A stretch of DNA of 64,000 nucleotides from positions 62,001 to 126,000 of the forward strand of contig JAUXSE010000056.1 of the NCBI GenBank assembly GCA_030681515.1, read 5' to 3'. Position numbers and translations under genes: made by a program. Origin of the DNA: Geothrix sp. GTDB taxonomy: Bacteria > Acidobacteriota > Holophagae > Holophagales > Holophagaceae. How positions within the stretch are numbered: position 1 is the first letter of the stretch; each line of letters begins with the position of its first letter. Below the pieces are notes generated by a model. The model searched no databases and was not told the origin of the DNA. It saw only the letters and a program-made list of their open reading frames with translations. Shown here piece after piece: positions 3,892-62,964 of the stretch.

Positions 3892-5820
3892 ATGGAACCT
3901 GCCCGCCTCGCCTCGACCTTGGGCGACCTGGATTTGCACCTGCTGGGCGAGGGGACGCATCTGCGGGCCTACGAAAAGCTGGGGGCGCATCCCCGGGTCG
4001 TGGACGGCACCGCGGGGGTGAGCTTCGCGGTCTGGGCGCCCAATGCGATCTCCGTGGGCGTGGTGGGGGATTTCAACGGCTGGGACGGCCGCGCCCATCC
4101 GTTGCATCCCGCGGGTCCCAACGGGTTCTGGGAGATCTTCGTGCCTGGTTTGGTGCCGGGGATGCTCTACAAGTTCGAGATCCACGGCCCGGATGGCAGC
4201 CTGCTGCCCCTCAAGGCAGACCCCTACGCCTTCCGGTGCGAGCGGGCGCCCGGCACGGCCTCCATCGTCCACGGCCTGCCTGGCTACGCCTGGGGCGACG
4301 GCGCGTGGATGGATCTGCGCCGGGGGACGAAAGCCCACGCGGCGCCCCTCAGCATCTACGAGCTCCACCTGGGCTCCTGGCGGCGGCGGCCGGACGGCGC
4401 CTTCATGAGCTACCGGGAGATCGCCGCGGACCTGGCCCCCTATGCGAGCTGGCTGGGCTTCACCCATGTGCAGCTGCTGCCCATCATGGAGCACCCCTAC
4501 GATCCCTCCTGGGGCTACCAGCCCCTGGGCCTGTTCGCGCCCACCAGCCGCTTCGGCGGGCCGGAGGACTTCAAGGCTTTCGTGGACACCCTGCATCAGG
4601 CCGGCCTGGGGGTCCTCCTCGACTGGGTGCCCGCCCACTTCCCCGAGGACGCCCACGGCCTGGCGGCCTTCGACGGCACCCATCTCTATGAGCACGCGGA
4701 TCCCCGCCAGGGCCGCCACATGGACTGGGGCACGCTGATCTACAACTACGGCCGCGCCGAAGTGCAGAACTACCTCATCTCGAATGCCCTCTTCTGGCTC
4801 GACCAGTTCCATGTGGACGGACTGCGGGTGGATGCGGTGGCGGCGATGCTCTATCTGGACTACAGCCGGGAAGCGGGCCAGTGGATCCCCAACCGGGACG
4901 GAGGCCGGGAAAACCTGGAAGCCGTGGCCTTCCTGCGCCGCCTGAACGAGGTGGTCTACGCCCAGTTCCCCGACACCTTCACCGTGGCCGAGGAATCCAC
5001 GGCCTGGCCCGGCGTCTCCCGGCCCACGGACCAGGGCGGCCTCGGCTTCGGCTTCAAGTGGGACATGGGCTGGATGCACGACACTCTGCGCTACCTGGGC
5101 CAGGGCATGATGGCGCGGCCCCACCATCACGACGACATCACCTTCTCCATGCTCTACCACGATGCGGAGAACTATGTGCTTCCGCTTTCGCACGACGAGG
5201 TGGTTCACGAGAAGCGGAGTCTGCTGGACCGGATGCCCGGCGAACCCTGGGAGCGCCTGGCGAACCTGCGCCTGCTCTACGCCTGGCTCTACGCCCACGG
5301 CGGCAAGAAGCTGCTCTTCATGGGTGGCGAGTTCGCCCAGGGGCGCGAATGGAATCACGATACCGCCCTGGATTGGGGCCTGCTCGATCGGCCCGAGAAC
5401 AAGGGCATCCATGACCTGGTGCGCGATCTCAACGGGCTCTACCGCCGCCACCCGGCCCTGCACGAGGGGGACTGCCAGGTCGGCGGGTTCTCGTGGATTG
5501 ACTGCGGCGACCGGTTCAACAGCGTGCTCACGCTGCTGCGCAGGGCTGCGGATCCCGGGGACTTCGTGGCCATCGCCTTCAACTTCACGGCACGCCCCCG
5601 GCACGGCTACCGCATCGGCGTGCCCGCGCCCGGCGCCTACGCCGAGCTGCTGAACACGGATTCCGCGCACTACGGCGGACGGAACCTGGGCAACACTGGG
5701 CGCGTCGAGACCGAAGCCATCCCCGCCCACGGGTTCCCGCAGTCCCTGAACCTCACCCTGCCACCGCTCGCGGCGCTGTTCCTCCAGCCTGAACCGCCTT
5801 CCCCCGCGCCACGCCACTAG
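3892..5820 (+). CDS. glgB: 1,4-alpha-glucan branching enzyme
   Basis: 642 residues, the length of short bacterial branching enzymes. The N-terminal CBM48-type domain contains [23 protein letters not shown]. The GH13 barrel holds HLGSWRR, the [12 protein letters not shown] motif, the nucleophile motif [11 protein letters not shown] and the acid/base region [28 protein letters not shown] and [15 protein letters not shown] complete the family signature. It transfers alpha-1,4 segments to form alpha-1,6 branches in glycogen. glgP begins 8 bp after its stop, so the two are probably co-transcribed. Confidence 0.96.
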
Positions 5821-47705: not shown

Positions 47706-47912
47706 GCCGGTGATGCACAGTGATTCACGGTGATGGGGCCATCCTCACACGAGCATGGGCTCCACCCAGGGGCGGCCCCGCCGCGCCGGTTTGGGAGTGC
47801 GGCGGTGGCGCCCCTGGGTGACTTCCGGCCCTGCCGGAAGCCGCCTTCGGCGGGCCCAGGCGGAACTCATCCGCACCCTGCCTTATCACCGTCATCACTG
47901 TGCATCACCGGC
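47706..47912. repeat. Iteron-bounded cloverleaf element, copy A (207 bp)
   Basis: Left iterons: GCCGGTGAT (47706), CACAGTGAT (47716) and CACGGTGAT (47726), exactly 10 bp apart. Right iterons run ATCACCG, ATCACTG and ATCACCGGC, ending at 47912. Core 47754-47858: closing stem TGGGC/GCCCA, long stem CACCCAGG...CCTGGGTG (47763-47820), then hairpins CTTCCGGC/GCCGGAAG and CCGCC/GGCGG. It lies in the panD-rng spacer. Confidence 0.88.
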
Positions 47913-47925
47913 TGCCCTTTCTTTA

Positions 47926-47965
47926 AATCCTGTTAATCCATCTTTTCATCCTGTCAATCCTGTCC
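47926..47965. repeat. AATCCTGT-family iterons, right half only
   Basis: Several AATCCTGT or ATCCTGT units read toward CTGTCC. The array nearly matches the right outer arm of the nested element at 44698-44738, including the TCTTTTCA linker, but no left arm is present. It abuts copy A. The following 165 bp up to rng show no gene. Confidence 0.7.
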
Positions 47966-59419: not shown

Positions 59420-59624
59420 GCCGGTGATCCACGGGGATGCACAGTGGTGGACGGTGATTGGGTGGAGGCAGCTTCCGCATGGGCCCGCCGGAGGCGGCCT
59501 CCGGCTTGGCCGGAGGTCATGGGGGCGTCAGGGCTGCGCCCCCCAAAAGGCGCAACCCTGACACCCCCCATGGAGCCCATGCTGGCGATGGGGCAGTATC
59601 ACCGGGATCACTGGAATCACCGGC
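59420..59624. repeat. Iteron-bounded cloverleaf element, copy B (205 bp), core inverted
   Basis: Left iterons GCCGGTGAT (59420), CACGGGGAT (59430), CACAGTGGT (59440) and GACGGTGAT (59450), exactly 10 bp apart. Right iterons ATCACCG, ATCACTG and ATCACCGGC, ending at 59624. Core 59478-59581 is in the opposite orientation to copies A and C: closing stem CATGGGC/GCCCATG, hairpins CCGCC/GGCGG and CCTCCGGC/GCCGGAGG, then a long stem 59518-59540 with 59549-59572. The long-stem sequence is unrelated to A and C yet almost fully self-complementary. The element ends 36 bp before the GxxExxY gene. Confidence 0.88.
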
Positions 59625-59660
59625 TGAAGTAGCCTTTCACCTACAGATCTGGAGGTACCC

Positions 59661-60029
59661 ATGCAAGAGAACGACTCCCTGACGGAACGGATCATCGGCT
59701 GCGCCTTCCAGGTCGCAAATACCTCGGGGCACGGTTTCCTGGAGAAGGTCTACGAGAACGCGCTGGCCCATGAACTGCGCAAAGCCGGTCTGCGCGTCGA
59801 TCAGCAACACGGCTTGGAGGTCCACTACGACGGGGTGCTGGTGGGCGAATTCCAGGTGGATCTTCTTGTGGAGGGCCGGGTCCTGGTGGAACTCAAGGCT
59901 GTCGCTGGCCTACAGGATGCTCATGTGGCCCAGTGCCTCAACTACCTCAAGGCGAGCGGGAGAACGGTCTGTCTGCTGTTCAACTTCGGCAAGAGTCTCC
60001 AGTTCCGGCGGCTGATGATGGGCAAGTGA
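59661..60029 (+). CDS. GxxExxY-family protein (PD-(D/E)XK-like nuclease fold)
   Basis: 122 residues, complete, with GGAGG before the ATG. The family motif is HGFLEKVYENALAHEL (G-x-x-E-x-x-Y). The putative nuclease core is GEFQVDLLVEGRVLVELKAV, with Asp, then Glu-x-Lys, as in PD-(D/E)XK enzymes. AQCLNYLKASG and LLFNFGKSLQFRRL complete the family pattern. The function of the family is unknown. Here it is bracketed by two copies of the same structured repeat, 36 bp upstream and 26 bp downstream, and has no other gene partner. Confidence 0.9.
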   Translation: MQENDSLTERIIGCAFQVANTSGHGFLEKVYENALAHELRKAGLRVDQQHGLEVHYDGVLVGEFQVDLLVEGRVLVELKAVAGLQDAHVAQCLNYLKASGRTVCLLFNFGKSLQFRRLMMGK

Positions 60030-60055
60030 TGCGCAACCTGAGAGAAAAGCTTTTT

Positions 60056-60260
60056 GCCGGTGATGGACGGTGATTACGGTGATTCGGCCGTTCGTGCTCA
60101 AGCATGGGCTCCACCCAGGGGAGCCGTCGCCGCGCCCTTTGAAAGCGCGGCGATGGCTCCCCTGGGTGACTTCCGGCCCCGCCGGAAGCCGCCTCTGGCG
60201 GGCCCATGCGGCGGTCCTCCGGACCTTTGCTTTATCACCGAAATCACTGAAATCACCGGC
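60056..60260. repeat. Iteron-bounded cloverleaf element, copy C (205 bp)
   Basis: Left iterons GCCGGTGAT (60056), GACGGTGAT (60066) and ACGGTGAT (60076). Right iterons ATCACCG, ATCACTG and ATCACCGGC, ending at 60260. Core 60103-60208: closing stem CATGGGC/GCCCATG (7 perfect pairs), long stem 60112-60168 starting CACCCAGGGGAGCC and ending GGCTCCCCTGGGTG, hairpins CTTCCGGC/GCCGGAAG and CCGCC/GGCGG. Compared with copy A the long stem has changed on both sides in a matching way (GGGGC:GCCCC versus GGGGA:TCCCC). Confidence 0.88.
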
Positions 60261-62750: not shown

Positions 62751-62964
62751 GCCGGTGATCCACGATGATAAACGGTGATCCCCTCCCGCAAGGGTCATCC
62801 GGGCCTGCGGCCCCCGGGCGCGCAGGCGCGACCGGCTGGGTGGGCGGCGGCCCGGGCGGCCCCAAAAGCCGCCATGGCCGCCGCCCACCCAGGGATGACC
62901 CGGAGAGTACGCCCCGCCTCCCCATCACCGTGCATCGCTGTTCATCAGGCTTTTCATCACCGGC
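62751..62964. repeat. Iteron-bounded cloverleaf element, copy D (214 bp), second core class
   Basis: Left iterons GCCGGTGAT (62751), CACGATGAT (62761) and AACGGTGAT (62771), 10 bp apart. Right iterons ATCACCG, ATCGCTG and ATCAGG, and finally ATCACCGGC ending at 62964. Core 62792-62901: closing stem GGGTCATCC/GGATGACCC, hairpin GGGCC/GGCCC, hairpin CGCG/CGCG, long stem starting CTGGGTGGGCGGCGG and ending CCGCCGCCCACCCAG. The iterons match copies A-C; the core sequence matches copy E. Confidence 0.87.

Follow-up and report, generated by a model that had tools for sequence, protein, structure and literature searches.

GxxExxY genes and their flanking iteron arrays as one genetic unit, a candidate minimal mobile cassette

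The 64,000-nucleotide stretch of a Geothrix sp. genome analysed here (the window) carries a small GxxExxY gene set between two copies of a repeat element with iteron ends. This arrangement raises the question of whether the gene and the repeats belong together and, if they do, whether the protein acts on the repeats and moves them, including copies that lack the gene. Such a system had been proposed from the sequence alone, by analogy to RAYT transposases and REP elements.

The window gene and its elements

The features considered are the following:

59420..59624, minus strand: element B, an inverted copy of C with a cloverleaf core between inverted iteron ends of GGTGAT type
59420..59461, plus strand: left iteron array of B, GCCGGTGAT-CCACGGGGAT-GCACAGTGGT-GGACGGTGAT, degenerate, about 10-bp spacing, assigned from sequence
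59598..59624, minus strand: right iteron array of B, ATCACCGGGATCACTGGAATCACCGGC, 9-bp spacing
59661..60029, plus strand: GxxExxY (PF13366, PDDEXK_3) gene, 122 aa, assigned from profile matches, alignment and predicted fold
60056..60260, plus strand: element C, a cloverleaf core between inverted GGTGAT iteron ends
60056..60083, plus strand: left iteron array of C, GCCGGTGATGGACGGTGATTACGGTGAT
60234..60260, minus strand: right iteron array of C, ATCACCGAAATCACTGAAATCACCGGC
47706..47912, plus strand: element A, a gene-less copy of the C type
62751..62964, plus strand: element D, gene-less, GGTGAT-type ends, different hairpin core

With the end of B at 59624 and the start of C at 60056, the distances of 36 bp from B to the gene and 26 bp from the gene to C, given in the earlier note, are exact. 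A GGAGG ribosome site lies immediately 5' of the ORF, which is, as claimed, the sole GxxExxY gene of the window; the genome has five in total. Both B and C start with GCCGGTGAT and end with ATCACCGGC, with more GGTGAT-type units inward, 9-10 bp apart. The two elements are copies of one another in opposite orientation (45-nt inverted repeat, 89%), and their cores are predicted to form three-armed cloverleaf folds that beat 200 of 200 shuffles (z -3.8 and -9.9); no Rfam family was matched anywhere in the window. In the B-gene-C layout the outermost iterons keep the facing orientation of a single cassette. Similar elements occur at further places in the genome outside the window, and the genome contains 12 perfect GGTGAT triple ends.

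Of the elements taken earlier for dispersed gene-less copies, A and D have the same ends and can be retained as such, although the core of D differs; an element 'E' was not identified. The same iteron ends are thus found with different hairpin cores (62751-62964 versus 59477-59588), and the core of B (59477-59588) was found again in the relatives G039, G020, G040 and G045. Iteron ends and cores may be exchangeable modules. Directly right of A, at 47914-47960, there is a second array with another motif (ATCCTGTTAATCC...ATCCTGTCAATCC), which is of the CAGGATT type found at the GxxExxY gene L002 of this genome.

The ORF matches Pfam PDDEXK_3 (E=4.8e-39) and NCBIfam GxxExxY (1.5e-39), and membership of the GxxExxY / PDDEXK_3 family (TIGR04256, PF13366) is met over the whole profile (133.8 bits against a cut-off of 22; 135 against 35). 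An AlphaFold2 model built from 82 sequences has an alpha/beta fold with a pLDDT of 94.5. Its best structural match is Cas4 SSO0001 (Z 10.3), and further relatives are restriction-like nucleases, lambda and LHK exonucleases and Hjc, with tRNA splicing endonucleases lower in the list. A profile search of PDB sequences returned a marginal match only (E 0.05). Residues E28, D67 and E77 are invariant, K79, Q91 and Y95 are at least 90% conserved, and Q91-x3-Y95 fits the QxxxY motif, a mark of the RecB/Cas4/lambda-exonuclease clade. The confident model and the conserved E, D, ExK and QxxxY residues bear out the PD-(D/E)XK fold that had been predicted. We are confident, on the basis of the modelled structure, that the protein has a RecB/Cas4-like PD-(D/E)XK fold with intact catalytic residues; nuclease activity itself is inferred.

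Iteron arrays at GxxExxY genes of the genome, the family and distant phyla

All five GxxExxY genes of the genome adjoin iterons, and the motif differs for each. GGTGAT arrays are absent at the other four genes, where a different short iteron lies directly beside the gene instead:

L001, gene between ftsA and ftsZ: CACGGAG-type iteron
L002: iteron CAGGATTAA
L004: iteron CACGGAA
L005: iteron CACGAAGGA

Where arrays are present on both sides of a gene in this genome, the upstream array points to the gene and the downstream array is its reverse complement.

A GxxExxY gene is present in 48 of 61 genomes, with 0-10 copies per genome in the own genus. Among 97 distinct genes of the same family, a lagged-repeat score of at least 3 was reached by 67% of the upstream and 54% of the downstream flanks, compared with 17% for windows placed at random and 14% for those behind other ORFs. 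At least 20 7-mers were shared between the upstream and the reverse-complemented downstream flank for 46% of these genes and for 2% of the controls. The only lag peaks in the family flanks were at 8, 9 and 10 bp and their harmonics, whereas control DNA contained codon periodicity only. About 20% of the family genes had no clear array by the simple score. A scan of a collection of species genomes found 80 loci in at least a dozen phyla, one of them in a Methanosarcinales record; 74 were usable. Their lag spectrum had values of 0.51, 0.95 and 0.65 at 8, 9 and 10 bp (control 0.09, 0.17 and 0.06), and at least 20 inverted 7-mers were shared at 32% of the 74 genes and at 0 of 832 controls. The association expected by the earlier note beyond this genome is therefore strong within the family as well as in distant phyla, and far above chance.

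Protein identity predicts the sharing of iteron words. For 4,441 gene pairs without homologous neighbourhoods rho was 0.217, and label permutations had a mean of 0.001 and an sd of 0.017, with a maximum of 0.058 among 500. Iterons were shared by 4% of the pairs below 40% protein identity, by 32% at 60-70% and by 68% above 70%. This co-divergence shows that gene and iterons are a unit, but it does not separate recognition of the iterons from joint travel without recognition. The proteins of L057 and L069 are 84% identical to that of the window and have arrays of another motif, CGAT/CGCTGAT, so iterons can change inside a close protein lineage too. GxxExxY genes and the short iteron arrays that surround them form one genetic unit.

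In the commonest layout the gene lies inside one iteron-bounded element, and the element-gene-element order of the window belongs to a minority. The arrays are typically triplets with an iteron spacing of 8-10 bp, the spacings being identical at both ends and the arrays inverted between them; the iteron motif is specific to each gene lineage. Among the cross-phyla loci, chains of the degenerate core C[AG][CG]N[AG]A[GT] are present upstream at 56% (control 3.8%), and reversed chains downstream at 50% (control 2.7%); 40% have both (control 0.2%). This core describes the arrays and is no test of them, because it was picked after the loci were seen. A C precedes the outermost unit in 106 of 116 arrays and the second unit in only 2 of 116, which defines a terminus of the form 5'-AC-C[AG]. 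The only recognised content of ORFs inside the cassettes is PF13366, and no recognised transposase was found there. Iteron and cloverleaf had both been named as what the protein recognises: the iteron can stand as the constant part of the cassettes, while the cloverleaf is absent from most cassettes seen and was rejected as the recognised part.

Occupied sites, empty sites and gene-less derivatives

The ftsA-ftsZ site consists of a short spacer only in 23 congeners and carries a cassette in G000, G044 and G053, a cassette with about 90 bp of the gene missing in G047, and a gene-less element with the same ends in G039. The cdsA-dxr site of G003 holds a cassette of about 490 bp, fitted exactly between the stop and the start codon; it is empty in G022, with 97% and 93% identity on its two sides, as well as in eight others. 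No target-site duplication was readable, the nearest empty site being different at the junction, and for the window's own site there is no clean empty counterpart, with relatives aligning only right of C. An empty site can alternatively reflect precise loss.

Several sites are occupied in more than one genus with different iteron motifs, namely cdsA-dxr (L005, L055, L280 and L382), the site between the thiolase and hydroxyacyl-CoA dehydrogenase genes (L029, L038 and L387) and a pyrG site (L025 and L392). This suggests that certain sites are preferred, or that the cassettes are very old residents whose iterons have turned over; the occurrence of diverged iterons at the same sites in several genera fits long residence rather than rapid movement. 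At L055 (~5390-5450), the right array has an outer end (CGTGGAGG) positioned as a possible ribosome site for dxr downstream, and in this way the cassette may make up for the stop-start overlap that was lost.

Mini-elements of ~70-120 bp, with the ends CACCACGGAGACACGGAG ... CTCCGTGTCTCCGTGGTG and a variable loop, are present at many unrelated intergenic sites in G044, G039, G053 and G047. Genomes in which the cognate gene was retrieved contain 98, 71, 54, 53, 24 and 12 CACGGAG pairs, the 13 gene-less genomes 0-3, and a reversed control pattern occurs 0-2 times everywhere. GGTGAT ends number up to 14 in gene carriers and 0-1 in gene-less genomes. The expectation that genomes without the gene would also lack the repeats was largely met, since none of the 13 genomes without any GxxExxY gene is rich in elements. 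In the element-rich G024 the cognate gene is present (L377); G013 and G019 have many CACGGAG pairs and no exactly matching gene among those retrieved.

Two genomes contain multiplied GxxExxY sequences of another kind. The 49 matches in G005 could have been read as self-amplification with internal deletions. This was rejected, as the copies lie inside an insertion sequence with ~45 copies (L116-L145), which carries a mostly truncated GxxExxY cassette as a passenger and spreads it; the G005 copies were left out as evidence for cassette mobility. No copy of this insertion sequence without the passenger was found in G005, hence no base-exact empty site is available from that genome. In G023 (L338-L363), a distant GxxExxY-like stretch is present in several near-identical copies.

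From the empty sites, the deletion derivatives and the copy numbers, the unit is likely mobile. The association, the mini-elements and the copy numbers support the view, put forward in the earlier note, of a gene-plus-repeat unit with non-autonomous dispersed copies and a logic like that of REPINs and RAYTs; any action of the protein on the repeats, be it recognition, processing or movement, is an inference.

Possible modes of spread

We think it probable, though by a limited measure, that the unit is a minimal mobile cassette of ~0.5 kb, encoding a nuclease for its own iterons and accompanied by non-autonomous derivatives; binding, cleavage and transposition are inferred, and action of the nuclease on the iterons is a reasoned inference. 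In such a scheme, the RecB/Cas4-like PD-(D/E)XK protein would bind its own iterons at both ends and would cut at the iterons, or at structures formed by single-stranded ends. Cutting could start excision or copying, with insertion completed by host repair, and elements that bear the ends without the gene (A, D and the mini-elements) would be moved in trans.

A parallel to these cassettes exists in PF05635 proteins, known from 23S rRNA intervening sequences (PMC4990558). PF05635 genes outside rRNA (L146-L175, L397-L425) also lie between inverted arrays, with units of 7 bp, sometimes 6 or 8 (e.g. TATCAGC, TAGGCAG and GCTTCAG). At the family level their lags are 1.74 at 7 and 1.58 at 14; in 29 PF05635 loci from the rest of the phylum the peak lags are 7 and 8 bp, the harmonics 14 and 16 also appear, and there is next to no signal at 9-10. 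Comparison of these peaks with those of GxxExxY indicates that the architecture is common and that the repeat period varies with the protein family. This dependence is the best indication obtained that arrays are shaped by their proteins. The parallel suggests that two unrelated proteins arrived at a common design. We are evenly divided on a broader proposal, in which iteron-bounded cassettes would be a general class of minimal mobile elements across prokaryotes, with at least two unrelated small proteins each reading its own array (a RecB/Cas4-like nuclease with 8-10-bp units and a four-helix protein with 7-8-bp units), and would explain a large share of the unexplained short intergenic tandem repeats in bacteria. 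The PF05635 system is also a possible explanation of heptanucleotide repeats reported from other bacteria.

The same parallel gives some room, albeit small, to an element acting at the RNA level like a 23S rRNA intervening sequence, in which the transcribed arrays would form a stem with the gene in the loop, the protein would act on RNA, and spread would go via an RNA copy or recombination. Besides the architecture common to PF05635 of rRNA intervening sequences (PMC4990558), the mini-elements are strong hairpins (z -4.7 and -6.7) and cassettes lie between operon genes, e.g. ftsA-ftsZ. However, the nearest folds are DNA nucleases, even if tRNA splicing endonucleases follow lower in the list. 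No clear strand bias of cassettes relative to their neighbours was seen with noisy, simple gene calls in GC-rich DNA, and no reverse transcriptase partner was seen, without a systematic search for one.

Slightly less credence still is given to a homing-type spread, in which the nuclease would cut gene-less elements of other origin and repair from a cassette would copy the gene in. Genes do often lie beside or between complete gene-less elements (in the window and at L028, L057, L069 and L080), and at ftsA-ftsZ one species has a gene-less element where others have cassettes; but the multiplication of gene-less elements only with the cognate gene would stay unexplained, unless the nuclease also spreads them. 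It is improbable that the iterons are operators for the protein or for a nucleoid protein, gene and sites being a regulon. Short direct repeats about one helical turn apart are a typical operator design, and similar Geobacter repeats were read as IHF/HU sites by earlier authors (PMC2700814), yet operators would not be expected to come as inverted arrays at insertion ends, to have empty sites and deletion derivatives, or to go with nuclease residues. Passive coincidence, through common tolerant intergenic sites or a gene that is a chance passenger of repeats or mobile elements, has a precedent in the insertion sequence of G005 and is nonetheless very improbable, since the iterons of the two ends match, diverge together with the protein at unrelated sites and have a period that varies with the protein family, and a gene that is merely a chance neighbour of the repeats is contradicted by the inverted 7-mer sharing and the co-divergence.

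Under the preferred reading, a mobile cassette with its own nuclease, the repeat arrays offer a testable substrate for the widespread GxxExxY family, which has no known function, and the link to GxxExxY turns scattered repeats into one system. The behaviour of gene and repeats as an insertable unit suggests an unrecognised kind of miniature mobile DNA and points to mobility through a Cas4/RecB-type nuclease without a recognisable transposase. The protein-iteron pairs, varying in sequence and spacing, are a natural series for studies of DNA recognition.

Few papers in the literature covered name GxxExxY, and the one examined mentions it only beside a reverse transcriptase and not with repeats; searches by accession, repeat sequence and architecture returned nothing relevant. 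Coverage of the literature was partial, and a prior report is possible. Cyanobacterial STRR are dispersed short tandem repeats in intergenic regions. For the inverted hepta- and octanucleotide tandem repeats of Geobacter a role as IHF/HU sites was suggested (PMC2700814), and TAACTGA repeats were considered possible translational sites (PMC4679880). Both resemble the iterons as short intergenic tandem units, the Geobacter ones in inverted pairs, but in the parts of these sources available they are not connected to GxxExxY or PF05635. The protein shares its fold and the E, D, ExK and QxxxY residues with the Cas4 / RecB / lambda-exonuclease clade, from which it differs as a minimal 122-aa domain with an iteron-array partner. 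The 23S rRNA intervening sequence (S23/PF05635) is likewise a small selfish insert with inverted ends and one small gene, whereas GxxExxY is an unrelated alpha/beta rather than four-helix protein, has an 8-10-bp rather than a 7-8-bp unit and does not lie in rRNA. Like insertion sequences and MITEs, GxxExxY cassettes have terminal inverted repeats, internal-deletion derivatives and empty sites; unlike them, they have no transposase gene, total ~0.5 kb and have ends built of iterons. A target duplication was not seen. REPINs and RAYTs (PMC3116915) are nearest in logic and have no parts in common with the present system. In both, cognate repeats flank the gene, gene-less inverted pairs are dispersed, and repeats and gene diverge together. 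However, GxxExxY is a PD-(D/E)XK nuclease by fold and RAYT a Y1/HUH transposase; the GxxExxY ends are triplets of direct iterons inverted between the ends, whereas REPs are single short palindromes; and the GxxExxY gene often lies within one element. The novelty rests on the unrelated protein and the design of the ends, and would be smaller if all units of a gene plus dispersed repeats were counted as one kind.
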